This document shows positions 575 to 18,480 of a DNA stretch of 64,000 nucleotides, piece after piece. Position numbers and translations under genes: made by a program. This stretch comes from Methylobacterium sp. Its GTDB lineage: Bacteria > Pseudomonadota > Alphaproteobacteria > Rhizobiales > Beijerinckiaceae. Location: positions 620,001 through 684,000 of the forward strand of contig JADCBP010000005.1 in NCBI GenBank assembly GCA_020253445.1. The letters run 5' to 3'. How positions within the stretch are numbered: position 1 is the first letter of the stretch; every line of letters starts with the position of its first letter. The notes beneath the pieces were generated by a model. That model was given only the letters and a program-made list of their open reading frames with translations, did not search any database and was not told the DNA's origin.

Positions 575-949
575 ATGAACTCCAATGGATCCCATGCACC
601 ATCCACCGCATCGCGCGGCAAGCGGCCGGGCCATGCCCGGCGACGGCGCATCGTCTCCCGCCTCTGGCAGACGGCGGAGAAGCAGGTGGATGAGGTGGAA
701 AATCGCCTCGCCGCCCTGCGCGACGATCCGCAGGCCATGGAGCGCGAAGCCAAGACGCTCGCGATCATCGCACGCACGGTGCGCGATCTCGTGGCCATCG
801 ACGACGAGGCCGGGGTTTCCCGCCTGGCGGAGAATCGGAATGAAAGCGACAACGCCGCGCCGGCCCGCGCCCTTGCCGAGTTCCGTCGCGAACTTGCGGA
901 GCGCCTTGAGCAGCTGCGTCACGAGCGGGCAGGGCCCGGCGCTCCTTGA
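575..949 (+). CDS. GTA gp1-like protein, probable small terminase subunit
   Basis: A 124-residue protein starting at an ATG preceded by a GGGGGA ribosome site. It has a basic N-terminus (Arg-rich around residues 20-25) followed by predicted long helices with heptad-like leucines, and no cysteine. Position directly before the large terminase equals g1 of Rhodobacter GTA, which was reported as the small terminase that recognises or recruits DNA for packaging. The assignment rests on position and general character because these proteins diverge strongly. The frame is open upstream to a GTG at 386, but the start at 575 has the better ribosome site and the family's usual length. Its 3' end overlaps the proposed large terminase start. 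Confidence 0.7.
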   Translation: MNSNGSHAPSTASRGKRPGHARRRRIVSRLWQTAEKQVDEVENRLAALRDDPQAMEREAKTLAIIARTVRDLVAIDDEAGVSRLAENRNESDNAAPARALAEFRRELAERLEQLRHERAGPGAP

Positions 950-2225
950 GGGCCTTTCGCCGGCCGCCCTGCGCGCCTTCGCGACCGACTGGACGCTCTT
1001 CGCCCGCGAGGACCAGTTGCCCCCGGCGCGAGCACGGGATGGCGGAGCCTGGACGACCTGGCTGATCCTGGGTGGGCGAGGCGCGGGCAAGACCCGGACA
1101 GGTGCGGAATGGGTGAGGGGCCTCGCCCTGGGGTTGCCGCCCTTCAGCGCGAAGCCCGTGGGGCGGATCGCCATCGTGGCCGAGACGCAGAATGACCTGC
1201 GCGAGGTGATGGTCGAGGGTGTTTCCGGCCTGCGCGCGGTGCATCCGCCGGATGAACGCCCCGTCTGGAACACCAGCCGGAGGCGGCTTGAATGGCCGAA
1301 CGGGGCTGTTGCCCAAGGTTTTTCGGCGGAAGATCCCGAATCCCTGCGCGGGCCTCAGTTCGAGGCCGCGTGGTGCGATGAACTGGCGAAATGGCGCTAT
1401 GCCGAAGCGGCCTTCGACATGCTGCAATTCGGCTTGCGCCTCGGGGATCAGCCGCGGCAGATCGTCACGACAACGCCACGGCCGACACCCCTGCTGAAGC
1501 GGCTCGCCAATGACCCGCATGCGGCGGTGACGCGCGCTTCCACCCGGGCCAACGCGGCCAATCTCGCGCCGGCCTTCCTGGCGCAGGTGGTCGATCGTTA
1601 TGCCGGCACGGCTCTGGGCCGGCAGGAACTCGAGGGCCTCTTCGTCGAGGAGAACCCCGATGCGCTGTTCCGGCGCGAAACGATTGAACGCGGCCGGGTG
1701 GCCGAAGCGCCCGATCTCGAGCGGATCGTGGTGGCGGTTGACCCTCCTGCCGGCGGAAAGCGCGGCGGACGCAGCGGCATCGTGGTGGCGGGGCGGGCCG
1801 CTGATGGCGCGATCTATGTGCTGGAAGATGCTTCGCTGGAGGCAGCCAAGCCCGAGGCGTGGGCGGCGCGGGCCATCGCGGCCTTCCGCACGCATGAAGC
1901 GGACCAGCTTCTGGCCGAGATCAACCAGGGCGGCGACATGGTGGCCAGCGTGATTGCGGCCCTCGACGATGGCGTGCCGGTGACGACGGTGCGCGCGACA
2001 CGCGGCAAGCGCCTGCGCGCCGAGCCCGTCGCCGCCTTCTATGCGCAGGGAAGGGTGCACCATGTGGGGGCCTTCCCGGCGCTTGAAGACGAAATGACGG
2101 CTTTCGGGCCTGATGGCCTTGCGGATGGACGATCGCCGGACCGGCTCGACGCGCTGGTCTGGGCGGTCACCGCGCTTGTTTCACAGAATGATGGTGCCGC
2201 CCCGCGCGTGCGCCGCCTGAGCTGA
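840..2225 (+). CDS. GTA large terminase (gp2), DNA-packaging motor
   Basis: ATP-driven motor and nuclease that fills GTA heads with host DNA. Walker A (GGRGAGKT, about residues 78-85) starts the ATPase domain, and an acidic Walker B-like WCDE lies near residue 180. The C-terminal RNase H-like nuclease begins at VVAVDPP (about 300) and ends with the RLDALVWA segment near residue 440, which carries a conserved Asp. The ATG at 840 has GGAG 7 nt upstream and gives 461 residues, overlapping gp1 by 110 bp. A TTG at 906 with a closer GGAG would give 439 residues and a shorter overlap. The product is certain; the start is not. Confidence 0.93.
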   Translation: MKATTPRRPAPLPSSVANLRSALSSCVTSGQGPALLEGLSPAALRAFATDWTLFAREDQLPPARARDGGAWTTWLILGGRGAGKTRTGAEWVRGLALGLPPFSAKPVGRIAIVAETQNDLREVMVEGVSGLRAVHPPDERPVWNTSRRRLEWPNGAVAQGFSAEDPESLRGPQFEAAWCDELAKWRYAEAAFDMLQFGLRLGDQPRQIVTTTPRPTPLLKRLANDPHAAVTRASTRANAANLAPAFLAQVVDRYAGTALGRQELEGLFVEENPDALFRRETIERGRVAEAPDLERIVVAVDPPAGGKRGGRSGIVVAGRAADGAIYVLEDASLEAAKPEAWAARAIAAFRTHEADQLLAEINQGGDMVASVIAALDDGVPVTTVRATRGKRLRAEPVAAFYAQGRVHHVGAFPALEDEMTAFGPDGLADGRSPDRLDALVWAVTALVSQNDGAAPRVRRLS

Positions 2226-2247: not shown

Positions 2248-3441
2248 ATGACATCGATCCTCTCCCGTCTCCTCGGCCGGCAGCCGGGGCCGGAGATGCG
2301 TGCGCCCGAACGCAAGCAGGGCTTGCCCATGCTGGCTTTCCACCATCCCGGTCGCGGGCTGTTCGGCGAGGCGAGCGGCGTGGCGCTGGTGCGCGCGGGG
2401 TTCCATCGCAACCCGGTGGTGCATCGCTGCGTCCGGCTGATCGCCGAATCGGCGGCCAATGTGCCGCTCGCGCTCACGGTTGATGGCGCGGAGGTGACGG
2501 ATCACCCGCTCGAAAAGCTGCTGGAGCGGCCGAACCCGCGCGAGAGCGGAATTTCGCTGCTCGATGGCGTCTTCACGCATCTGCTGCTCTTCGGGAATGC
2601 CTATCTGCATCTCCTGACCGATGGCGAGACGGCCCCGCTCGAGATCCATGCCCTGCGGCCGGATCGGGTGCGGGTGGTGGCGGGGCCGGATGGCTGGCCG
2701 CGGGGCCATGAATACAGCCTCGGCGCGGCCCGCTCGCTGATCGCGATCGAGCCGGAAGGCTTGCAGCCGATCCTGCATCTCAGGCTTGCCGATCCGCTCG
2801 ATGACCACCAGGGCTACGCGCCGCTCTGCGCCGCACAGGTGCCGCTGGAAATGCATGAGGCGGCAAGCCGCTGGAACAAGGCGCTGCTCGACAATTCCGC
2901 CCGGCCCTCCGGCGCGCTGGTCTATGCCTCGCCGGAGAACCTGACCGATCTGCAGTTCGATCGCCTCAAGGCCGAGCTGGAACAGGCCTTCTCGGGCCAG
3001 AGCAATGCGGGCCGGCCGATCCTGCTGGAAGGCGGGCTCGACTGGAAGCCTTTGGCGCTGACGCCCAAGGACATGGATTTCCAGGAAGCGCGGAATGGCG
3101 CCGCGCGGGAAATCGCGCTCGCTTTCGGAGTGCCGCCCCTGCTGCTGGGCTTGCCCGGCGACAACACCTATTCGAACTATGCCGAGGCCAATCGCGCCTT
3201 CTGGCGGCAGACCATTGTGCCGCTGGTCCGGCGGGTATCGGGCGCCATGGCGCAATGGCTTCAGCCAGCCTATGCGGGACGCATCACCCTCCTGCCCGAT
3301 CTGGACCAGATCGAGGCGATTGCCGAGGACCGCAGCGCGCTCTGGAAGCGCGTGGCCGAAGCCAGCTTCCTGACCGACCAGGAAAAGCGCAACGCCCTCG
3401 GCTACGGTGCCAAGGCCAAACCGCGTGCGCCACGCCCATGA
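2248..3441 (+). CDS. GTA portal protein (gp3)
   Basis: Portal of the HK97 type: a dodecameric ring at one capsid vertex through which DNA enters and to which the tail joins. The 397 residues match the family's normal size. Recognisable stretches include the RNPVVHRCVRLIAES N-terminal helix region, the LLFGNAYLHL strand, and the FGVPPLLLGLPGDNTYSNYAEANRAFW motif near residues 294-320 (split here by a few residues), typical of phage_portal family members. GGAG precedes the ATG at 2248. It lies 22 bp after the terminase and overlaps the next gene by 4 bp, indicating translational coupling. Confidence 0.95.
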   Translation: MTSILSRLLGRQPGPEMRAPERKQGLPMLAFHHPGRGLFGEASGVALVRAGFHRNPVVHRCVRLIAESAANVPLALTVDGAEVTDHPLEKLLERPNPRESGISLLDGVFTHLLLFGNAYLHLLTDGETAPLEIHALRPDRVRVVAGPDGWPRGHEYSLGAARSLIAIEPEGLQPILHLRLADPLDDHQGYAPLCAAQVPLEMHEAASRWNKALLDNSARPSGALVYASPENLTDLQFDRLKAELEQAFSGQSNAGRPILLEGGLDWKPLALTPKDMDFQEARNGAAREIALAFGVPPLLLGLPGDNTYSNYAEANRAFWRQTIVPLVRRVSGAMAQWLQPAYAGRITLLPDLDQIEAIAEDRSALWKRVAEASFLTDQEKRNALGYGAKAKPRAPRP

Positions 3442-3885: not shown

Positions 3886-4476
3886 ATGCCGAACGCCTTG
3901 CATTTCGGTCGGTCCGCCTCCCTGCCGGCCGGAAGAAGCACCCGCGCGCCCGTTCAGAAGAGCGGGGGCGCGGGTGCCGCCCCGCGCATTGACGCGGAGG
4001 GCTATTTCGACGGCTATGCATCGCTCTTCGGCGTGGCCGATCTCGGACGCGACGTGGTGATGCCAGGTGCCTTCCGGGCGAGCCTTGCGCAGCGCACGGC
4101 CATCGGCGTGAAGCAGCTCTGGCAGCATGATCCCCGAAATCCGGTCGGGGAATGGCTGGAAATCGCCGAGGATCAGCGTGGCCTGCGGGTGCTGGGTCGG
4201 CTCGACCTCGAACTCCCCAAGGCGCGCGAGTTGCACCGCCTCATCACCCGCGGAAGCGTGGACGGGCTTTCCATCGGCTTCAAGGCCGAGAGTGAGAAGC
4301 GCGACCTGGAGACCGGGCTGAGGCGGCTCGAGAAGCTCGATCTTTGGGAGATTTCCATCGTTACCTTCCCCCTGTTGCCGCAGGCGCGCATCGCCCCGCG
4401 TGGCGATGGCAGGGGCCCATTGGGCAGCGGCGCACATGCCGCCGCCTTTTCCCGGCGCCGGATGGCGCAATTCTGA
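3886..4476 (+). CDS. GTA prohead protease (gp4)
   Basis: HK97-family (peptidase U35) maturation protease that cleaves the capsid N-terminus during head assembly. The 196 residues show the family core: GYFDGYASLFGVADLGRDVV near residues 42-61, the catalytic His in the LWQHDP motif (about residue 84), and the catalytic Ser in TRGSVDGLSIGF (about residues 122-133). The ATG has an AAGGA ribosome site. It sits directly before the capsid gene with a 15-bp gap, as in other GTAs and HK97-like phages. Confidence 0.94.
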   Translation: MPNALHFGRSASLPAGRSTRAPVQKSGGAGAAPRIDAEGYFDGYASLFGVADLGRDVVMPGAFRASLAQRTAIGVKQLWQHDPRNPVGEWLEIAEDQRGLRVLGRLDLELPKARELHRLITRGSVDGLSIGFKAESEKRDLETGLRRLEKLDLWEISIVTFPLLPQARIAPRGDGRGPLGSGAHAAAFSRRRMAQF

Positions 4477-4491
4477 ACCACGAGGATCACC

Positions 4492-5727
4492 ATGACCCAT
4501 CTGCGTCACCCGGAAGCCGCGGCTCCGGAAACGAAAGCGCTTTCGCAAGCCGAGGAGTTCGACAATCTGAACCGCCTCGTCGCTGAGTATCGCAGCGAGA
4601 ATGATGACCGCCGCGCGGCGGCAGACCCGCTTCAGGCGGAGAAGCTCGCCCGCATGGACCGCGCGATCGACCTGTGCATGGACCGGATCCGGACGCTGGA
4701 GACCAAGGGGCGTCGCCCGGCCCTGGGCTTCGGCGAGGAGGGTGTTTCGCTCGCGGCCCTCGAACACAAGGGCGCCTTCGAAAGCTATCTGCGCTCCGGC
4801 GAGACGCAGGCGTTGCAGCGCCTCGAAATCAAGTCGACCACCTCGATGACCGCACCGGATGGAGGCTACCTTCTCCCCATGCTCACGGAGGAGAGCGTGC
4901 TTGCGCGGATCGCCGGGCTCTCGCCGATCCGGTCGATCGCGAGCGTGCAGGCCGTTTCAGGCTCCGGCCTGCGCAAGGCGGTGACGCCGACCGGCGCGCA
5001 ATCGGGCTGGACGGGGGATGCCGCCCCGGGCAATGCCGTGCAGGCCAGCGCTTTCGTGGCGCTCGATTTCCCCACGGGCGAGCTCTTCACCCAGCCGGCC
5101 GCAACCCAGGCCATGCTCGATGACGTGGCCGTGGATATCGAGGGGTGGATCTCCAGCGAGATCGTCCGCGTCTTCGCGGCGGCCGAGACCACGGCCTTCG
5201 TGAACGGCAACGGCACAAACAAGCCGAAGGGCTTCCTCACCTACCCCACCTTGGCGCAGGCCAGCTGGAGTTGGAACAATCTCGGCTTTGTCACAACCGG
5301 TGCGGCGGGTGCCTTTGCGGCTTCCAACCCCTCCGACAGCCTTGTCGACCTCGCGCATGCGCTGAAAGCGGTCTATCGCCAGAACGGCACCTTCGTGATG
5401 AACCGGAAGACGCAGGGCGCCATCCGAAAGCTGAAGGACACGACCGGCAATTTCATCTGGCAGCCGCCCAGCATGGCCGGCGCGCGTTCGACGCTGCTCA
5501 ATTTCCCCGTGGTGGAAGCCGAGGACATGCCGGATATTGCCGCGAACAGCCTCTCGGTCGCCTTCGGTGATTTCCAGCGCGGCTATGTGGTGGTGGATCG
5601 CATCGGCATCCGCACGATGCGCGATCCGTTCTCCACCAAGCCCTTCGTGATCTTCTACACAACGAAGCGCGTGGGCGGCGGCGTGCAGGATTTCGATGCG
5701 ATCAAGCTGCTGCGCTTCTCGGTGTGA
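4492..5727 (+). CDS. GTA major capsid protein (gp5)
   Basis: HK97-fold capsid protein that forms the head shell. It has 411 residues. The N-terminal ~105 residues are charged and helical (delta domain), and the mature shell likely begins near the IKSTTSMTAPDGGYLLP region (about residue 120), which prohead protease gp4 would expose. Typical features are the AVDIEGWISSEIVRVFAAAETTAFVNGNG segment (E-loop/spine helix side, in parts) and the P-domain RVGGGVQDFDAIKLL end. It is the most abundant particle protein, so strong translation is expected. A 12-bp hairpin lies 15 bp after its stop. Confidence 0.96.
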   Translation: MTHLRHPEAAAPETKALSQAEEFDNLNRLVAEYRSENDDRRAAADPLQAEKLARMDRAIDLCMDRIRTLETKGRRPALGFGEEGVSLAALEHKGAFESYLRSGETQALQRLEIKSTTSMTAPDGGYLLPMLTEESVLARIAGLSPIRSIASVQAVSGSGLRKAVTPTGAQSGWTGDAAPGNAVQASAFVALDFPTGELFTQPAATQAMLDDVAVDIEGWISSEIVRVFAAAETTAFVNGNGTNKPKGFLTYPTLAQASWSWNNLGFVTTGAAGAFAASNPSDSLVDLAHALKAVYRQNGTFVMNRKTQGAIRKLKDTTGNFIWQPPSMAGARSTLLNFPVVEAEDMPDIAANSLSVAFGDFQRGYVVVDRIGIRTMRDPFSTKPFVIFYTTKRVGGGVQDFDAIKLLRFSV

Positions 5728-5735
5728 CAGCGTCA

Positions 5736-6542
5736 TCAGCGGGTCGGGCGGGGCCGAGCCTCGCCCGACCAGCGCGCGAGATTCTGCTCGATCCATCCCG
5801 CCTGCGGCGCCAGGCGCACCGCCTGGCCGATCGTGCCGCAGGAGCGGGCATCGCCGAAGCTCTCGCGGCCATAGACCACGCCGACGATGACCTTGCTGCC
5901 GAACCCGGTAGCGAGAACCGGGCCGCCGGAATCACCGGTGCAGATCGCGAAATCGGACAGATCCGCGCTTGGTGACGTGCCGATGCGCAGGAAGCGCGGG
6001 AAAAGCCGGGGAAGAACGCTTACCGAGGCGCTGCGAAGCGTGCCCGCGCTGGCCTCGTCGCTCTCGCGCTGCATGCCATAGCCCGCGATGAGGAATGTGG
6101 CGCCGACGCGATGCTCCACCTCGCCGCGGTCGAAAGGCAGCGGCGCGAAGCGCGCGGGCAGAGGAGATTCGAGCCGGATCAGCGCGAGATCGAGCGAAAC
6201 GCGCGCGCGTGCCGAAAAACCGGGATGGATCGCGCGGCTGATGACGCGCTGAAGCACATGGCTGCCATTCTCGGCATAGGCCACGACCACCTGCTTCTTG
6301 CCAGCCACGCAATGCGCGGCGGTGAGGATCACATCGCGGCCGATCACGGTTCCCGTGCAGGCACCATGCCGGGTGCCTTCACGCGAAAGCACCATGAGGA
6401 CATGCGGCTGCAAGCCCGGATCGGGTTGCGACTGCGCGCCACCCAGCGCGAAAGCCGGCAAGGCCAGGATCACGAGGCTCGCGGCGCCGGCCGCCCAGGA
6501 TGCAAGCCGCCGCGCGCGGCCGGATTTTCGAAACAGTTCCAC
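5736..6542 (-). CDS. secreted trypsin-like serine protease, antisense inside the GTA cluster
   Basis: A 268-residue protein with an N-terminal signal sequence (basic start, hydrophobic residues 14-34, likely cut after FALGGAQS). The chymotrypsin-fold triad is complete: His77 in LTAAHC, Asp118 in SLDLAL and Ser205 in GDSGGP. It should therefore be an active extracytoplasmic protease. It lies on the opposite strand between capsid (8 bp away, tail to tail) and gp6 (86 bp away, head to head), splitting the otherwise collinear GTA genes. Codon use resembles its neighbours. It could be a resident cargo gene, or a factor acting on GTA release or on the cell envelope. I know of no equivalent in the reference GTA. 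Confidence 0.92.
   Translation of the reverse strand: MELFRKSGRARRLASWAAGAASLVILALPAFALGGAQSQPDPGLQPHVLMVLSREGTRHGACTGTVIGRDVILTAAHCVAGKKQVVVAYAENGSHVLQRVISRAIHPGFSARARVSLDLALIRLESPLPARFAPLPFDRGEVEHRVGATFLIAGYGMQRESDEASAGTLRSASVSVLPRLFPRFLRIGTSPSADLSDFAICTGDSGGPVLATGFGSKVIVGVVYGRESFGDARSCGTIGQAVRLAPQAGWIEQNLARWSGEARPRPTR
5743..5769. repeat. 12-bp hairpin between capsid and antisense protease
   Basis: GTCGGGCGGGGC-CGA-GCCTCGCCCGAC pairs over 12 positions with one G-T type wobble. It lies 15 bp after the capsid stop and inside the last codons of the antisense protease. No T-run follows on either strand, so it is not a standard terminator. It could stabilise or shorten the capsid transcript. 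Confidence 0.45.
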
Positions 6543-6628
6543 AGCGCGGACCTTTGCACCGCGCCTTCCTGCCGCGCAAGTCCGATGGGCCGGCGCGGCG
6601 CGCTTCTGCGACAGAAAGGCACTGACCC

Positions 6629-7207
6629 ATGATCCCGCTTCTGGTGGATGGGCCGCAGCTCGAGCCCGTCAGTCTCGTCGAGGCCAAGGGCTGGCTCCGC
6701 GTCGAAGGCAGCGACGAGGACAGCCTCATCCAGGCATTGATCATCGCGGCCCGCCTGACGGTGGAAAGCGAGATCGGCCTCGTTCTCCTCGCGCAGAACT
6801 GGCGGATCATCGGCGACCAATGGCCGCCGTCGGAAACACTCCCCGTGCGGATCGGCCGCGTGATCTCGGTCGCCGGCGGGCGGGTGTTTCCGGCGGCTGG
6901 CGCGCCGCAGCTGCTCGCCGCTGCAGAATTCGAAATCGTGAAGGGCCAGGAGCACGACTCCATCCGCCCGCTTCTTCGCCCGGCGCCAGGCCGCCGACGC
7001 GGTGGCATCGAGATCGATGTCCGGCTCGGCTTTGGCGAATTCGCAAGCCAGGTACCCGAGCCCCTGCGCCTCGCGGTGCGCCAGCTCGTGGCCTACTGGT
7101 TCGAGAACAGGGGCGACGCCGCCATCGTCGAACGCGGATTGCCCGGCCAGGTGCGGGCCATGCTGAAGCCGTTCCGTAGCCTGCGCCTTGGAGGACTTTC
7201 GGCATGA
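6629..7207 (+). CDS. GTA head-tail connector (gp6)
   Basis: A 192-residue adaptor of the phiE125 gp8 / HK97 gp6 type that forms a ring beneath the portal. The family's N-terminal SLVEAKGWLRVEGSDEDSLI start is clear (residues 15-34), followed by the helical AARLTVESEIG and a C-terminal LRLAVRQLVAYWFENRG helix. It overlaps the next gene by 4 bp. It is the first GTA gene after the antisense protease, so its transcription needs either read-through across that gene or a promoter in 6543-6628; I see no convincing promoter there. Confidence 0.9.
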   Translation: MIPLLVDGPQLEPVSLVEAKGWLRVEGSDEDSLIQALIIAARLTVESEIGLVLLAQNWRIIGDQWPPSETLPVRIGRVISVAGGRVFPAAGAPQLLAAAEFEIVKGQEHDSIRPLLRPAPGRRRGGIEIDVRLGFGEFASQVPEPLRLAVRQLVAYWFENRGDAAIVERGLPGQVRAMLKPFRSLRLGGLSA

Positions 7208-11089: not shown

Positions 11090-11560
11090 ATGCCGCGAAT
11101 GAGCAAGGCCGAGCGCGAGGAAGCCGCGCGCCGAGAGGAAATCGTGCGCCTCGCGCGGGAATGGATCGGCACGCCCTACCAGCATCAGGCCTCGTTGAAG
11201 GGCGTGGGCGCGGATTGCCTCGGTTTCCTGCGCGGGGTGTGGCGTGAGGCGGTGGGCGAGGAGCCCGAAGCCATTCCAGCCTACTCGCCCGCCTGGGCGG
11301 AGCTGGGTGCGCCCGATCAGCTCATCGTCGGGGCCTTCCGGCATCTTCTGCCGCGCCCGATGGATGCGGAAATCCGCCCCGGCACCGTGCTGATCTTCCG
11401 CTGGCGCGCGCATCTGCCGGCGAAACATTGCGCCATCGCGACCGGCCCCGAAACCTTCGTGCATGCGCATGACGGGGCTTCGGTCGCCGAAGTGGCGCTT
11501 CTGCCGATCTGGCGACGGAAACTGGCGGGACTCTTTGATTTTCCGGCCCGGAGGGAATGA
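11090..11560 (+). CDS. GTA NlpC/P60 cell-wall hydrolase (gp14)
   Basis: A 156-residue peptidoglycan hydrolase of the NlpC/P60 cysteine peptidase family, located at the tail tip to open the recipient's wall during DNA entry. The catalytic Cys43 lies in GADCLGFLRGVWRE and the His113 in PAKHCAI. The N-terminal extension is charged and helical. The gene starts 7 bp after gp13 (an alternative ATG is three codons on) and overlaps gp15 by 4 bp. Confidence 0.93.
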   Translation: MPRMSKAEREEAARREEIVRLAREWIGTPYQHQASLKGVGADCLGFLRGVWREAVGEEPEAIPAYSPAWAELGAPDQLIVGAFRHLLPRPMDAEIRPGTVLIFRWRAHLPAKHCAIATGPETFVHAHDGASVAEVALLPIWRRKLAGLFDFPARRE

Positions 11561-14500
11561 TGGCGACCATCGCATTCGAATTGCTGGGCTCGACCTTGGG
11601 ACAGAGCCTCGGAGGCACTTTTGGCGCCGCCTTCGGCAAGACCGCCGGGGCGCTCGCGGGCGGGCTGATCGATCGCGCCTTTCTGGGGCAGGGTGCGCGA
11701 CGTGTGCAGCAAGGCCCGCGCCTGACCGATCTCGACGGGATTTCCGCAAGCGAGGGCGCGCCGATTCCGCGCATCTACGGCCGTGTGCGGCTGGGCGGGC
11801 AGGTGATCTGGGCGACGGAATTCGAAGAGCAGCAGGTCGTCGAAAAAAGCGGGGGCGTGGGTGGCAAGTCTGCCATTGGCGCTCGACAGAAGAGCATTCG
11901 CTATGTCTATTCGGCGAATGTCGCGATTGGCCTTTGCGAGGGGCCGGTTGCCTTCGTGCGGCGCATCTGGGCTGACGGGAAGGCGGTGGATCTCTCGGCG
12001 ATCACCTATCGCATCTATCGCGGCGAGGCCAACCAGCCCGCCGACCCGCTGATTGTGGCGAAGCAGGGAACGGGGCAGGTGCCCGCGTTCCGTGGGCTCG
12101 CCTATATCGTGTTCGAACGCTTTCCACTGGCGGATTACGGCAATCGCCTGCCGCAGTTCTCGTTCGAGATCGTGCGGCCGATGCCCGGTTTGCCGGATCG
12201 GCTGAAGGCCGTGAACATCTTCCCCGGCTCGACCGAATTCGGTTATGCCACGGAAGAGGTGCGCGAGGATTTCGGCTATGGCACCTCGCGCACGCTCAAC
12301 CGCTCGCAATGGACGCGCGGCACCGATTGGGAGCAATCCATCGACGATCTGCAGGCGCTCTGCCCCAATCTCGAACGCGCGACGCTGATCTGCGCGTGGT
12401 TCGGGGATGATCTGCGCGTGGGCAACTGCACGATCACGCCCCGCGTGGAGAAGAAGGGCAAGATCACCACCGGCCAGAGCTGGCAGGTTTGCGGATTGAC
12501 GCGCGAGACCGCTCAGGCGGTTTCCGCTTCGGAGGGGCGGCCCAATTACGGCGGCACGCCTTCGGATCTTTCGATCATCCAGGCGATCCGGGATCTGAAG
12601 GCGCGCGGGCTGAAGGTCGCGCTCCACCCCTTCATTCTGATGGATATTCCGCCCGGCAATGGCAGGCCCGATCCATATTCCAATGCAGCAGACCAGCCGG
12701 CCTTTCCCTGGCGGGGGCGGATGACCTGCAACCCCGCGCCGGAAAAGCCCGGAAGCCCTGCCGGGACGACCGGCGTGAATGCCGGGATTGCGAACTTCAT
12801 CGGATCGGCGCAGGCCAGCCATTTCGTGCTTTCCGGGGACACCGTGCTCTATGCCGGACCTGCGGAATGGAGCTTCCGGCGGATGGTGCTGCATCACGCC
12901 ATGCTCGCGAAGGCGGCCGGCGGGGTCGATACGTTCTTCATCGCTTCCGAGCTTGTCGGCCTCACCCATCTCTCTGCAGGCGGCGGAAGCTACCCCATGG
13001 TCGCGGCGCTCACGGGGCTTCTCGGAGAATTGCGTGGGATCCTCGGCCCCTCCACGTGCATCACCTATGCCGCCGACTGGACCGAATATGGCGCGCATGT
13101 GCGGGGCGGCGGGCAGGAGGTGCGCTTTCCGCTCGATCCCTTCTGGAGCCATCCGGAAGTCGCCGCGGTCGCGATCGATTTCTACCCTCCGGTGACGGAT
13201 TGGCGCGAAGAGCCCGCGCATTTCGATGCGAGCCTTGCGGAGACACCCCATGACCCCGCCTATCTGGTCGACCGGATTGGCGCAGGCGAAGGTTTTGACT
13301 GGTTTTACGCCGATGCCGGGTCGCGCGCGAACCAGATCCGGACGCCCATCTCCGACGGCGCTTACGGCAAGCCGTGGATCTACCGGCCGAAGGACCTTGT
13401 CGGCTGGTGGTCGAACACGCATCGCGAAAGGGTTGGCGGGGTGGAGATCGCGTCCAATACGGGCTGGCAGCCGCGTTCGAAGCCCATCCTGCTGGCTGAA
13501 ATCGGCTGTGGCGCGGTGGATAAGGGGACCAATCAGCCGAACATCTTTCCGGACCCGAAATCCGTCGAGAACGGGTTGCCCTATTTTTCCCGCGGCCATC
13601 GCGACGACATGATCCAGCGCCGGCTGCTGGAGGCGATGCTCGATCGGTTCGATCCGGCCAGCACCGGACATATTGCCGCGCATAACCCGGTCTCGCCGGT
13701 TTATGGCGGGCCGATGGTGATGCCGGATTTCATCGCGCCCTGGGCCTATGACGCACGTCCGTTTCCGGCCTTTCCCGCCATGCGCGACCAATGGGCGGAC
13801 GGGCAGAATTTTGCGCGCGGTCATTGGCTCAACGGCCGGCTCGAGATTGCGCCGCTTCCCGAATTGATTGCAACGGTGATCGCCGACCACGCGGCCGATC
13901 AGGGATCGGTTCAGCCAATCGGCGAGGCAATCGAAGGATTCGTCGTGGACCGCCCCATGACGGCGCGGGCCGTGCTGGAGCCTCTGCTGGACAGCTTTGG
14001 CCTCCTTGCTTCGGGCGATGGCGCTGAACTCTCGGTCAAGCCGCGTGCTGCCTTTCCGGTGGCGCTGATCGCGCGGGATGATCTCGTGGCACCGACGGGT
14101 CGGAATGGCGCGGAAATTGAAATCGCGCGGCTGGAAGAGCGCGACCTGCCCCGCAGCTTCCGGCTGGGCTTCGTCGATCCGGATCGCGATTTCCGCAAGA
14201 CGATGGTCGAGGCACGTCGCGATGGCAGCGCCGCCCAAAGGGAGGTCAGCGAGGACGTCGCGATGATCCTGCCCAAGGGGCGCGCGCGTCGACTCGCCGA
14301 GCAGCGTCTGGCCGAGGCCTGGGCCGCCCGCGAGGTCTTTCGTTTTGCCCTGCCGCCCAGTGCCCGTGCCATCGAGGCGGGCGATCTTGTTGCGATCGAG
14401 ACCGAGGCGGGGATCAGGCTGGTGCGCCTCACCCGCATCTCCGACCAGCGCGAACGGGTCTGCGAGGCTGTATCGCATGATCCGGAAACCATGGGTTTTG

Positions 14501-15480
14501 CGCCGATCGACGATGATGTGACCGAGCTGCCTGTGACCCCGGCGCTGCCCGGTGCGCCCTATGCCCGGCTCCTCGAATTGCCAATCCTGCGCTCCGAGAG
14601 TGCAAGCCCGTTGCATCTGGCCATGCGTGCGGAGCCCTGGCGCGGGCCCTATGCATTGACACGGACGGATCAGGGCGGAACCGTTCTGGGCGAGGCCGTG
14701 GCAGCAGCCCGCTTCGGCACCCTGATGACCGCGCTTGCGCCCGGGCCGCTCTGGCGGTGGGATCACGCCTCAAGTTGCGAGATCCTGCTCGTATCGGGTG
14801 CCCTTGCAAGCGTGGACGAGGCCGCCGTGCTCGCGGGCAACAACGCGCTGGCGCTGATGGGGCCGGATGGCGAGATCGAGATCGTCCTTTTCCGGCAGGC
14901 GACGCTTGTCGCCGACCGGCGATACAGGCTCTCGGGTCTGTTGCGCGGGGTGGGCCTTTCGGAGAGGGCGGCCCTGCGCATACTCGCGCCGGGCGCGCAA
15001 GCGATCGTCCTGGACGATGCCGTGGTTGATCTCGGCCTTGGCGTCGAGCATGTCGGGCAGAGAGTCGAACTCGCGATCATCCCGGCAGGGCGAGACATCG
15101 GTGATCCCGCCGTAGCCCGGACCGTTCAAGCAATCGCCGGCAAGACCTATCGTCCGCTTTCGCCGGTCCATGCAAGGGCGCGACGTGAGGCGGGTGGAAT
15201 CCGTCTGACTTTCATCCGGCGTGCGCGGTTTGGCGGCGATAACTGGGAACTTTACGAGGTTCCCCTCGCCGAGGAACGCGAGGAATACCGGATCGAGATC
15301 CGAGACGGGGCAACAGTGAAGCGAAGCGTCACGGTTGCGACGCCGGAATATCTCTACGGGACCGCCGAGGAAACGGCCGATTTCGGCGCGCCCCGGGGAA
15401 GTCTCGACGTCACCATTGTCCAGCTTTCCACCAGGATTGGCGCCGGCGATCCGCTGGTGACAACGCTCCGCGTGCAATGA
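11557..15480 (+). CDS. GTA host-contact / megatron protein (gp15)
   Basis: A 1307-residue baseplate giant. The N-terminus (residues 1-45) has a Gly/Ala-rich hydrophobic stretch that may insert in membranes. A GTA TIM-barrel-like, glycosidase-fold domain spans roughly residues 415-740. A phage tail protein domain follows (about 790-950), then a C-terminal Rcc01698-type region with beta domains that likely contact the recipient surface. ATG overlaps the gp14 stop. It is the final structural gene and by far the longest in the window. Confidence 0.95.
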   Translation: MMATIAFELLGSTLGQSLGGTFGAAFGKTAGALAGGLIDRAFLGQGARRVQQGPRLTDLDGISASEGAPIPRIYGRVRLGGQVIWATEFEEQQVVEKSGGVGGKSAIGARQKSIRYVYSANVAIGLCEGPVAFVRRIWADGKAVDLSAITYRIYRGEANQPADPLIVAKQGTGQVPAFRGLAYIVFERFPLADYGNRLPQFSFEIVRPMPGLPDRLKAVNIFPGSTEFGYATEEVREDFGYGTSRTLNRSQWTRGTDWEQSIDDLQALCPNLERATLICAWFGDDLRVGNCTITPRVEKKGKITTGQSWQVCGLTRETAQAVSASEGRPNYGGTPSDLSIIQAIRDLKARGLKVALHPFILMDIPPGNGRPDPYSNAADQPAFPWRGRMTCNPAPEKPGSPAGTTGVNAGIANFIGSAQASHFVLSGDTVLYAGPAEWSFRRMVLHHAMLAKAAGGVDTFFIASELVGLTHLSAGGGSYPMVAALTGLLGELRGILGPSTCITYAADWTEYGAHVRGGGQEVRFPLDPFWSHPEVAAVAIDFYPPVTDWREEPAHFDASLAETPHDPAYLVDRIGAGEGFDWFYADAGSRANQIRTPISDGAYGKPWIYRPKDLVGWWSNTHRERVGGVEIASNTGWQPRSKPILLAEIGCGAVDKGTNQPNIFPDPKSVENGLPYFSRGHRDDMIQRRLLEAMLDRFDPASTGHIAAHNPVSPVYGGPMVMPDFIAPWAYDARPFPAFPAMRDQWADGQNFARGHWLNGRLEIAPLPELIATVIADHAADQGSVQPIGEAIEGFVVDRPMTARAVLEPLLDSFGLLASGDGAELSVKPRAAFPVALIARDDLVAPTGRNGAEIEIARLEERDLPRSFRLGFVDPDRDFRKTMVEARRDGSAAQREVSEDVAMILPKGRARRLAEQRLAEAWAAREVFRFALPPSARAIEAGDLVAIETEAGIRLVRLTRISDQRERVCEAVSHDPETMGFAPIDDDVTELPVTPALPGAPYARLLELPILRSESASPLHLAMRAEPWRGPYALTRTDQGGTVLGEAVAAARFGTLMTALAPGPLWRWDHASSCEILLVSGALASVDEAAVLAGNNALALMGPDGEIEIVLFRQATLVADRRYRLSGLLRGVGLSERAALRILAPGAQAIVLDDAVVDLGLGVEHVGQRVELAIIPAGRDIGDPAVARTVQAIAGKTYRPLSPVHARARREAGGIRLTFIRRARFGGDNWELYEVPLAEEREEYRIEIRDGATVKRSVTVATPEYLYGTAEETADFGAPRGSLDVTIVQLSTRIGAGDPLVTTLRVQ

Positions 15481-15502
15481 AGCCATCCAATTGGAGAATG
15501 CC

Positions 15503-16264
15503 ATGGCTGCCGCCAACTTCGAGCGGGCGCTTGCGCTCGTTCTTCGACATGAAGGTGGTTTTTCCGACCATCCATCCGACCCCGGTGGCGCCACCATGAT
15601 GGGGATCACGCAGGCCACGCTTGGCGCATGGCGCGGACAGCCTGTGACCAGAGCGGATATTCGCGAGCTTTCGCGACAGGAAGCCACGTCAATTTACCGG
15701 GTTCGATACTGGAACGCCGTGGCCGGCGATGAACTCCCCGCCGGGATCGATCTCGCGGCTTTCGATTACGCCGTGAATTCCGGGCCACAGCGGGTTATCC
15801 GCACCCTTCAGGGTCTGGTGGCCGTTGAGGTTGATGGTTGGATGGGGCCGCAAACCCTCGGTGCCATCCGTGCTGCCGATCCCCGATCTCTGATCGAGGC
15901 GCTTTGCGCCGCGCGCCTGCGCTTTCTCCGGCAATTGCACACCTTTCCGATCTTCGGCCGGGGCTGGATGAGGCGCGTGGCCGAAATCGAGCGCGAAAGC
16001 CTCCGCCTCACCCTTTCCAGCCGGCCCGCCGGGACGGCAAACCAAAAGGAGAAGACCATGTTCGATACCAAGACGCTTCTGCAGAGCCGCACGGTCTGGG
16101 CCAATGTCGTTGGTTTCGGTTCGATCGCCCTTTCGCTCATGGGCTTCCAGACCATGGGGCTGGATCAGGGGCTCCTTACGGATCGGTTGCTCGAACTCGT
16201 GGCGGCTGGCAGCTTCGTGGCCTCGACAGTGTTTCGTGTCATCGCCACCAAGCGCCTGATCTGA
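15503..16264 (+). CDS. GH108 endolysin fused to a holin-like membrane domain
   Basis: Residues 1-~175 form a glycoside hydrolase 108 muramidase: the catalytic Glu17 in LRHEGGFSDHPSDPGG, then YWNAVAGDELP, AFDYAVNSGP and the C-terminal VDGWMGPQTLGAI peptidoglycan-binding part. Without any stop codon the frame runs on to a holin-like domain with two hydrophobic segments (WANVVGFGSIALSLMGF and LLELVAAGSFVASTVFRV). The whole is 253 residues. The start at 15503 has TTGGAG 6 nt upstream; the frame also has a TTG at 15491. An internal ATG at 16058 has its own strong ribosome site. It follows gp15 by 22 bp and should serve GTA release. Confidence 0.9.
   Translation: MAAANFERALALVLRHEGGFSDHPSDPGGATMMGITQATLGAWRGQPVTRADIRELSRQEATSIYRVRYWNAVAGDELPAGIDLAAFDYAVNSGPQRVIRTLQGLVAVEVDGWMGPQTLGAIRAADPRSLIEALCAARLRFLRQLHTFPIFGRGWMRRVAEIERESLRLTLSSRPAGTANQKEKTMFDTKTLLQSRTVWANVVGFGSIALSLMGFQTMGLDQGLLTDRLLELVAAGSFVASTVFRVIATKRLI
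16058..16264 (+). CDS. holin-like protein made from an internal start (alternative product)
   Basis: An in-frame ATG at codon 186 of the endolysin fusion is preceded by AAGGAG (16046-16051) with a 6-nt spacing, better than the ribosome site of most genes here. Translation from it would give a separate 68-residue protein, MFDTKTLLQSRTVWANVVG at its start, with two hydrophobic segments, resembling the small holin-type protein that follows GH108 genes in other alphaproteobacteria. Whether fusion, separate protein or both are made cannot be read from sequence. Confidence 0.6.
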   Translation: MFDTKTLLQSRTVWANVVGFGSIALSLMGFQTMGLDQGLLTDRLLELVAAGSFVASTVFRVIATKRLI

Positions 16265-16388: not shown

Positions 16389-17072
16389 ATGCGTCTGCTT
16401 GTGATCGAGGATGATCGCGACATCAACCGCCAGTTGACCTCGGCGCTGGAACATGCGGGCTATGCGGTTGACAGCGCCTTCGATGGCGAGGAGGGGCATT
16501 TCCTCGGCGATACGGAGCCCTACGATGGGGTGATCCTCGATATGGGCCTGCCGAAGATGGATGGCATTCGTGTGCTGGAGAAATGGCGACGCGAAGGCCG
16601 CAAGATGCCCGTTCTGATCCTCACGGCGCGCGACCGCTGGAGCGAGAAGGTGCAGGGCTTCGATGCTGGCGCCGATGACTACGTGACAAAGCCTTTCCAT
16701 ATGGAAGAGGTGCTTGCGCGCCTGCGGGCGCTGCTGCGGCGCGCAGCCGGCCACGCCACGAGCGAATTGACCTGTGGCCCGGTCATTCTCGATACGCGCT
16801 CGAGCCGCGTGGTGGTGGACGGCAACCCGATCCGGCTGACGAGCCACGAATATCGCTTGCTGGCCTATCTCATGCATCACCAGGGCCGCGTGGTGTCGCG
16901 GACCGAATTGGTCGAGCATCTCTATGATCAGGATTTCGACCGCGATTCCAACACGATCGAGGTGTTTGTCGGTCGCCTGCGCAAGAAGCTCGGCGTGGAT
17001 GTGATCGAAACTGTCCGAGGTCTGGGCTATATCGCGCAGGCTCCGCGCCTGCCGGCCCCGAAACCGAAGTGA
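16389..17072 (+). CDS. OmpR-family response regulator (FeuP/PhoP-like)
   Basis: A 227-residue transcriptional regulator. The receiver domain has the acidic pocket (EDD at residues 7-9), the phospho-acceptor Asp51 in VILDMGLP and the Lys in YVTKPF near residue 101. A winged-helix DNA-binding domain follows (SHEYRLLAYLMHHQGRVVS and the IEVFVGRLRKKLG recognition part). I chose the ATG at 16389, 9 nt after GGGGAG, since the receiver starts at once. The kinase gene follows after 4 bp. A FeuP/FeuQ identity is inferred from similarity in character and from proximity to ccm genes. Confidence 0.93.
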   Translation: MRLLVIEDDRDINRQLTSALEHAGYAVDSAFDGEEGHFLGDTEPYDGVILDMGLPKMDGIRVLEKWRREGRKMPVLILTARDRWSEKVQGFDAGADDYVTKPFHMEEVLARLRALLRRAAGHATSELTCGPVILDTRSSRVVVDGNPIRLTSHEYRLLAYLMHHQGRVVSRTELVEHLYDQDFDRDSNTIEVFVGRLRKKLGVDVIETVRGLGYIAQAPRLPAPKPK

Positions 17073-17076
17073 AACC

Positions 17077-18480
17077 ATGCGCTTCACGCTTCCCGGCCCC
17101 ACCGATCCACGCTCGCTGGCCGGGCGATTGTTCCTCACGGCCATCCTGCTCTCTGCCCTCGTGCTGGTATCGACCGGCACGATCCTGTCGGCCATCAACC
17201 GCCGATCCGTAGAGGCGGCCTTTGATGAACGCCTGAAGCTCTATCTGAAGGTGCTTGTGGCGGATGTAGCCGCATTGACCGATGGCAACAATGTCGAGCC
17301 CGGGAATCTCGGCGAGCCGCAGTTCCAGATTCCGTTATCCGGCTGGTACTGGCAGATCATGCGGATCGACATGGAGAGCAGCACGGCCGCAATCCTCCGC
17401 ACCTCGCGATCGCTTTTCAACCAGCGGCTTCCTCCGCTTGTCGAACCCGGGATGCCATCGTTGCGCGGAGACTTCCGCGATGGCTACCGCACGGGACCGG
17501 AGGGGAGGCGCATTCGAATTGTCGAGCAGGAAATCGACCTGGGCGAGCAGAATCGATTCCTGATTTCAGTGGCGGGGAATGCCGAAGAGATCGTGGAAGA
17601 GCGGCGACGCTTCGACTTCGCGGTGCTCACATTGTTGAGCCTGCTCGGCCTTGCGCTCGGAATCTCCGCCTATGTGCAGGTTCGCTACGGTCTGCGGCCG
17701 CTGCGCGAACTGAGCCAATCACTGGCCCAGGTGCGCAACGGCGAGCGCGAGCGCGTGGAGGGCGAATTCCCCGTGGAGGTCGCGCCTTTGGCCGGAGAAC
17801 TCAACCAGCTGCTGGACATGAACCGCGAGATCGTGAGCCGCGCCCGTGCTCAGGTCGGCAATCTCGCGCATGCGCTGAAGACGCCGCTTTCAGTACTCCT
17901 GAATGAAGCCGGGGGTGATTCCGGGCCATTGGGGGAGAAGATACGCGAACAATCCGCCATCATGCGCGATCAGTTGCAATATTATCTGGACCGGGCTCGC
18001 GCCGCCGCACGCGCCGCAGCGATCGGCAATTTCACCGAGGTCGAGCCGGTCCTCGCGGCCTTCACGCGCACATTCGAGAAGATCTACCGCGACCGGGATA
18101 TCCGTTTTTCCCTCGAGATCGAGACGCCGCTGCGCTTCCGGGGCGAGAAGCAGGACCTCGAGGAGATGGTGGGCAATCTCATCGACAATGCCGGAAAATG
18201 GGCGGCAAGCGAGGTTCGCATCCGCGTGCATGCAGCACCACAATTCGACCATGCGTCCAACCAGATCGATCTCATCGTCGATGACGATGGACCGGGCCTG
18301 CCTGACGAAAAGCGAATCGAGGCCACAAAGCGCGGCCGGCGCCTTGATGAAACCAAGCCCGGCTCCGGCCTGGGCCTGTCGATCGTGGTCGACCTTGCCG
18401 GCCTTTACGGGGGCAGCTTCGTGCTGGAAGATTCACCACTCGGCGGTCTTCGCGCGCGCCTCACCCTTCCCGCTTTGTGA
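17077..18480 (+). CDS. sensor histidine kinase (FeuQ/PhoQ-like)
   Basis: A 467-residue membrane kinase partnering the regulator just upstream. Transmembrane helices lie near residues 22-40 and 185-205 and enclose a periplasmic sensor domain. A HAMP domain follows, then the phospho-acceptor His265 in NLAHALKTPL and an ATPase domain with NLIDNAGKWA, DDDGPGLPD and the GSGLGLSIV box. The sensed signal is unknown; related FeuQ/PhoQ proteins respond to envelope or ionic conditions. The next 109 bp before ccmI contain no gene. Confidence 0.92.
   Translation: MRFTLPGPTDPRSLAGRLFLTAILLSALVLVSTGTILSAINRRSVEAAFDERLKLYLKVLVADVAALTDGNNVEPGNLGEPQFQIPLSGWYWQIMRIDMESSTAAILRTSRSLFNQRLPPLVEPGMPSLRGDFRDGYRTGPEGRRIRIVEQEIDLGEQNRFLISVAGNAEEIVEERRRFDFAVLTLLSLLGLALGISAYVQVRYGLRPLRELSQSLAQVRNGERERVEGEFPVEVAPLAGELNQLLDMNREIVSRARAQVGNLAHALKTPLSVLLNEAGGDSGPLGEKIREQSAIMRDQLQYYLDRARAAARAAAIGNFTEVEPVLAAFTRTFEKIYRDRDIRFSLEIETPLRFRGEKQDLEEMVGNLIDNAGKWAASEVRIRVHAAPQFDHASNQIDLIVDDDGPGLPDEKRIEATKRGRRLDETKPGSGLGLSIVVDLAGLYGGSFVLEDSPLGGLRARLTLPAL

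Follow-up and report, generated by a model that had tools for sequence, protein, structure and literature searches.

Background

Clusters for gene transfer agents (GTAs) are commonly regarded as collinear operons of structural genes that are kept for GTA function, and the RcGTA cluster is itself collinear. In prophages, accessory genes that are not needed for the phage cycle are known as morons, and one moron candidate, STMMW_20121 of prophage ST64B, lies antisense to the lytic genes, has its own promoter and helps the host (PMC7067206). In Caulobacter, LypA and LypC, trypsin-like serine peptidases of a CARD-NLR-like GTA lysis system, are needed for GTA lysis (PMC13236601).

Here we describe an RcGTA-like cluster in a window of 64,000 nucleotides (Methylobacterium sp., contig JADCBP010000005.1, positions 620,001 to 684,000), in which the order g1-g15 is that of RcGTA and a protease gene lies on the opposite strand between the capsid gene g5 and the connector gene g6 (Table 1). 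The protease resembles LypA and LypC in being trypsin-like and linked to a GTA, whereas those peptidases are multi-domain and have an operon of their own (PMC13236601), and the protein described here is a single exported-type domain encoded inside the structural cluster, with neither a CARD/ATPase nor a nuclease domain fused to the peptidase. It shares its cluster with the prohead protease g4 but is unrelated to it: g4 is an assembly protein of family S78 encoded on the same strand as the other GTA genes, whereas the S1 protease is antisense. The closest likeness is to prophage morons such as STMMW_20121 (PMC7067206), in that the gene sits among phage-type genes in antisense direction, as it does in 49 of 49 loci measured, these being the loci, among 68 supplied, that have g5, g6 and the protease together. 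Unlike STMMW_20121, the protease gene sits in a GTA rather than a prophage, its own promoter is putative, it is conserved across several family-level lineages, and it stays at the locus after the phage-like genes have been lost. Its position and direction are those of a moron; that it works like one is a proposal rather than a proven status. We found no description of this protease gene in the open-access literature on gene transfer agents, a search whose coverage took in few subscription papers, and the main text of a paper on how GTAs and their hosts co-evolve makes no mention of trypsin. On the evidence below, the protease is probably an ancient host gene, accessory and moron-like, that lies antisense within the RcGTA-like cluster and has a putative envelope role independent of the GTA.

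Table 1. Features of the GTA locus and of the g5-g6 gap (window coordinates, except where a locus number precedes the range)
Feature	Coordinates	Strand	Remarks
g2, large terminase	585..2225	+	
g3, portal	2248..3441	+	
g4, prohead protease (S78)	3886..4476	+	the GTA's own, unrelated protease
g5, HK97-type major capsid protein of GTA	4492..5727	+	convergent with the protease gene
S1 (chymotrypsin-fold) serine protease	5736..6542	-	268 aa, GTG start, stop codon included; signal-peptide-like N-terminus; triad His77/Asp118/Ser205
Promoter-like element CTTGC-N17-TGCAAA	6553..6580	-	upstream of protease start; genus-conserved; putative
g6, head-tail connector of GTA	6629..7207	+	
g15, GTA megatron baseplate protein	11557..15480	+	1594 bits to NF048004
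GH108 muramidase-like gene	15491..16264	+	follows g15; last codons are the right deletion end in SD176
Response regulator and histidine kinase	16389..18480	+	right flank markers of the GTA locus
Secreted-looking proteins of ~103-105 aa	L185 6763-7074; L191 6754-7065; L199 7583-7894; L212 7530-7847	-	GTA-oriented coordinates

A chymotrypsin-fold protease with an intact triad

The length of the reading frame is by itself weak evidence for a gene, a stop-free run of at least 268 codons having appeared in 10 of 500 mononucleotide shuffles. That the gene is real follows from its family match, its conservation and its purifying selection. Pfam Trypsin (PF00089) matches residues 40-251 with E 9.2e-24 (84.9 bits, cut-off 20.6), Trypsin and Trypsin_2 being the only domain matches in the protein; the closest solved structure by sequence is chymotrypsin (E 1.2e-10); and an AlphaFold2 model built on 33 sequences (mean pLDDT 82.6) has chymotrypsinogen as its top Foldseek match (E 5.6e-13, TM 0.65 and 0.70). 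Membership of peptidase family S1 is thus indicated by domain, model and structural match alike, and the His-Asp-Ser triad expected of that family is invariant in all 105 aligned relatives, as are four cysteines. In all 12 genome pairs compared within the genus, dN/dS of the protease (simple Nei-Gojobori counts) is 0.07-0.20, like that of its GTA neighbours. The preliminary description, a complete secreted-type serine protease with an intact triad lying antisense between capsid and connector, is borne out by reading frame, domain, fold and position, and the Pfam match, purifying selection and conserved triad together rule out a chance reading frame. Two further candidates were set aside: the GTA prohead protease is g4 and not this gene, and a second protease copy is excluded by a single match at E 0.01 in the genome of the window.

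By eye, the N-terminus resembles a Sec signal peptide ending in AFA directly before LGG. Among the 105 relatives, A-x-A directly precedes an end that starts with I, V, L or M in 64, by a loose pattern that 41 do not fit; the commonest such end is IVGG (17). Trypsin-type enzymes require an N-terminal end of this kind for activity, and for this reason the enzyme may become active on removal of the signal peptide, bypassing a zymogen step. The four invariant cysteines are consistent with two disulfides and an oxidising compartment. At the position of Asp189, which defines the trypsin specificity subgroup, the aligned residue is Gly in 77, Ala in 20, Ser in 7 and Gln in 1 of the 105 proteins, and since Asp189 is absent, cleavage after Lys or Arg would not be expected.

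Conservation of place and direction among relatives

The protease is present in each of the 16 other genomes sampled from the genus, and in 15 it lies within the GTA cluster, which removes the possibility that this strain alone carries it here; the exception, Rhabdaerophilum sp. SD176 (G002), has the protease and no GTA genes. When related GTA clusters were searched for a protease between g5 and g6 in a family sample of 60 genomes, window included, it was found in-cluster in 44 of the 46 genomes with an RcGTA-like cluster. The order is g5-protease-g6 in 41 of these 44, and in the other three (G039, G046, G054) it is protease-g6 near a contig end, with the g5 side not found. The two clusters without the protease are those of G033 and G057. 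In eight genomes the protease is present at a locus devoid of GTA genes (G002, G025, G029, G042, G052, G053, G058 and, as a broken copy, G055), and six have no protease (G019, G022, G037, G043, G048, G050), five of which, all except G043, have no GTA either. G053 also has a diverged GTA-like gene run on another contig, between whose g5 and g6 no protease was detected. The GTA locus of G043 is truncated by one gap that removes part of g2 through part of g6, capsid, portal and protease included, so that part of g2 is joined to part of g6 (L241, 13353-14119) and the tail genes remain.

An antisense protease in a GTA operon is found in many related soil and water bacteria, and the arrangement is common to the family of the window and the Xanthobacteraceae and Phreatobacter lineages; named records include Bosea, Microvirga, Chelatococcus, Alsobacter, Salinarimonas, Ancylobacter and Phreatobacter. 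Across 397 genomes of the order, capsid matches at 1e-60 are present in 265 and protease-profile matches at 1e-8 in 101. The protease lies near the capsid in at least 21 of 23 capsid-bearing genomes of family f1 (19 from listed coordinates, plus G047 and G396 by inspection of the locus; G362 has both genes, their adjacency lying outside the matches listed, and G033 is without the protease), in at least 6 of 7 of family f20, which groups with Phreatobacter in the tree, and in 6 of 6 of family f36, which groups with Bradyrhizobium, Rhodopseudomonas and Ancylobacter, one of these having 7 kb in between. Family f49 has tandem protease copies and no GTA at the locus. As the preliminary description implied, the arrangement is unusual: outside these four family-level lineages, among the matches listed, no protease stands beside a capsid in the RcGTA-like clusters of other families of the order. 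A class sample of 289 genomes gave eight matches at 1e-15, four strong ones from f1 and four weak ones from elsewhere.

In a tree of 105 proteases, GTA-less copies nest among those that their relatives carry inside the cluster, and the placements of SD176, the Bosea pair, G430/G255, G245/G294 and Bradyrhizobium have starred support; some deep joins involve long branches and are unsure, and the broken G055 copy was left out by a 180-aa filter. The Bradyrhizobium copies lie elsewhere, yet group inside the in-cluster Xanthobacteraceae clade (100/99). Protease distances correlate with those of g5, g6, g9 and g12 (Mantel r 0.64, 0.77, 0.67 and 0.65; 32 loci, 0 of 999 permutations for each gene). 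Alignment A2 omits 5 of 37 loci that have a stop inside the quoted range. Tandem pairs of the protease are present in several genera. The simplest history would be a single insertion that predates the split of these families, followed by inheritance together with the cluster, tandem duplication in some lineages, and repeated loss of the GTA around a retained protease; one published clock dates the common ancestor of the order as a whole to about 1,569 Mya (PMC7363004). The preliminary description had offered a tolerated insertion point as one explanation, and an insertion there is indeed what is seen, but it is old and under selection, not neutral.

An origin as a gene of known phages was also considered and ruled out: none of 50,697 phage records matches the protease at E 1e-3, and a single PHROG family named protease matches weakly (E 0.001). 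GTA genes adjoin the protease in 18 of 20 IMG/VR loci that carry it, and these contigs therefore look like GTA fragments. Those numbered L201-L218 appear to be bacterial fragments filed as viruses, and the protease of L201 is ~91% identical to that of the window.

Retention of the protease after GTA loss

Old GTA loci can be recognised by their flanks, a class A penicillin-binding protein and YcgN on the left and GH108, response regulator, histidine kinase and Ccm genes on the right. Among 31 loci without GTA genes (G002 counted once), 20 keep the protease or a tandem pair beside one or both old flanks, in 14 genomes (G002, G025, G029, G042, G052, G053, G055, G058, G430, G255, G245, G294, G107, G194) and 6 named loci (L138, L149, L151, L157, L162, L166), with both flanks visible in seven (G002, G025, G042, G107, G194, L151, L162). 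Neither old flank was seen in the other 11, most of them Bradyrhizobium.

The clearest deletion is that of SD176. Aligned with the GTA-bearing genome G012, it matches up to the end of YcgN, lacks the next 5,642 bp (g1 to g5), retains an island of 886 bp at 94.7% identity, lacks a further 9,369 bp (from g6 almost as far as the GH108 stop), and then matches again at 91.5%. The island consists of the protease gene, extended by roughly one base beyond the stop codon at one end and by ~70 bp upstream of the start at the other. The protease it encodes is 98.1% identical to that of G012, with a dN/dS of 0.071 that indicates purifying selection, and no capsid, distal tail protein or megatron gene was found in SD176. 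A comparable difference is seen on the left side in Bosea, where ~0.4 kb separates flank and protease pair in B. psychrotolerans versus ~5.2 kb in Bosea sp. Root483D1.

A genome-wide megatron search had no match in G002, G029, G052, G058, G245, G294, G107, G194, G094 or G404; G025, G042, G053 and G055 carry pieces of a megatron gene, and G430 and G255 have full-length genes at sites outside the locus. The search was also positive in two of the 14 controls, E. coli and Caulobacter, and one of these matches exceeded the cut-off. At 1e-5, the gene for g12, the distal tail protein, is missing from 12 of the 14 genomes of the family in which it was sought, among them SD176; the two that have it are G043 and G053. 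The megatron genes of G430 (C1:5393661-5397563) and G255 (C33 and C111) are of GTA type and perhaps belong to GTA-like prophages; neither genome has a capsid match at 1e-60.

Since it has stayed at its position in several lineages that lost the particle genes, the protease probably works for the bacterium and not for the particle. Purifying selection after GTA loss, as read from the sequences, suggests a benefit of the protease to the host. The retained copies show that the GTA is not needed for keeping the protease; an additional effect on the GTA where both are present remains compatible with this.

The strongest alternative, though an unlikely one, is that the protease serves the GTA itself, in particle release, recipient entry or the processing of particle proteins, and that GTA-less copies are leftovers or were later reused. 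Its near-constant place in GTA-bearing family genomes would fit such a service, as would the need for LypA and LypC in Caulobacter GTA lysis (PMC13236601) and the joint loss of protease and head genes in G043. Presence of protease and GTA is also associated (Fisher p 0.0013, in a test that predates the closer look at G043 and G053; p 0.0008 without G053), an association that linkage or shared function could explain. Against this stand the 20 loci that kept the protease beside the old flanks, the selection on the SD176 copy, the intact clusters of G033 and G057 that do without it, and the clusters of other families, which have no protease near the capsid among the matches listed. Lying on the other strand, the gene is, moreover, no part of the GTA transcript. 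The suggestion that the protease helps particles leave or be processed is accordingly unsupported as a main role, since the same place is kept where the GTA genes are gone.

A promoter-like element and convergent transcription

Upstream of the protease start, read from 6580 to 6553 on the minus strand of the window, is an element whose two parts resemble -35 and -10 boxes (Table 1). CTTG[CA] occurs at the matching distance in 15 of 17 genus members versus 1.04 expected, in 10 of 66 other family copies versus 5.1 expected, and in 3 of 22 further copies versus 1.5, and the element is thus confined to the genus. It falls within the piece kept by SD176; a generic sigma-70 scan did not call it. Under our preferred reading, a moron-like host gene, the protease would be transcribed from a promoter of its own while the GTA is silent, and would then be exported. 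Cleavage of the signal peptide would often expose an I/V/L-x-G-G end able to act as Ile16, yielding an active enzyme, which may cleave envelope or extracellular proteins, probably not after Lys or Arg, to the benefit of the cell and independently of GTA particles.

In the window, g5 ends 8 bp before the stop codon of the protease, and such tight convergence is common: the two stop codons lie no more than 30 bp apart in 32 of 49 loci and abut or overlap in 10. GTA transcripts that cross the protease gene may yield antisense RNA, as the preliminary description proposed. With stop-to-stop spacing this tight, most loci have almost no space for a terminator between the genes, and a scan of window positions 5600-6800 found no terminator-like site. 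The tight convergence could itself be selected. One rather improbable form of this idea is a switch between producers and non-producers, in which convergent transcription makes the protease-on and GTA-on states exclusive and an envelope protease marks and equips non-producing recipients; the clade would then keep the convergent geometry because it couples the two states. We regard as more doubtful still an antisense regulatory device, by which protease transcription restrains g6-g15 in non-producers and GTA transcription silences the protease in producers. The invariant opposite orientation, the closeness of the stop codons and the terminator scan all agree with it, but the gap exceeds 300 bp in 8 of 49 loci (7 kb in one), protein-level purifying selection and an intact triad require an enzyme, and retention without a GTA is left unexplained. 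That the gene is a functionless, neutral passenger at a tolerant site is very improbable, for although the g5-g6 gap holds other reading frames in some lineages and the G055 copy is broken, the triad is intact in every aligned relative, dN/dS is low in every pair, and the protease survives where deletions took out its neighbours on either side.

Significance and other genes in the g5-g6 gap

The moron-like protease is a real, clade-wide antisense gene of a GTA operon that is able to outlive the GTA, and more than a single odd insertion. There is, then, a clade in which an unrelated, opposite-strand gene sits inside the GTA cluster and survives the loss of the GTA, so that selection on the locus may act in part on the passenger, which bears on why GTA genes persist. 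The arrangement makes transcriptional interference in a GTA operon testable, and it points to a candidate envelope protease in related genera, among them Rhabdaerophilum, Bosea, Microvirga and Bradyrhizobium.

The gap between g5 and g6 holds other genes as well. In two genera a pair of small plus-strand reading frames lies between tandem proteases (L093 9342-10191 and L183 7063-7930, GTA-oriented); the longer L093 protein has no Pfam match. In loci of Xanthobacteraceae type, secreted-looking proteins of ~103-105 aa adjoin the protease on the same antisense strand (Table 1) and share the motif ADL..HS.(L/I)G..FAEP with a YGCGWYGYC-like end. The one member tested has no Pfam match; it is possible that this protein is a partner or inhibitor of the protease. 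A further antisense gene is found in the same gap in L185 (7141-7893) and L191 (7150-7899; both minus, GTA-oriented), and because the L185 copy matches META and YscW domains, the gap appears to hold more than one cargo gene of secreted type.
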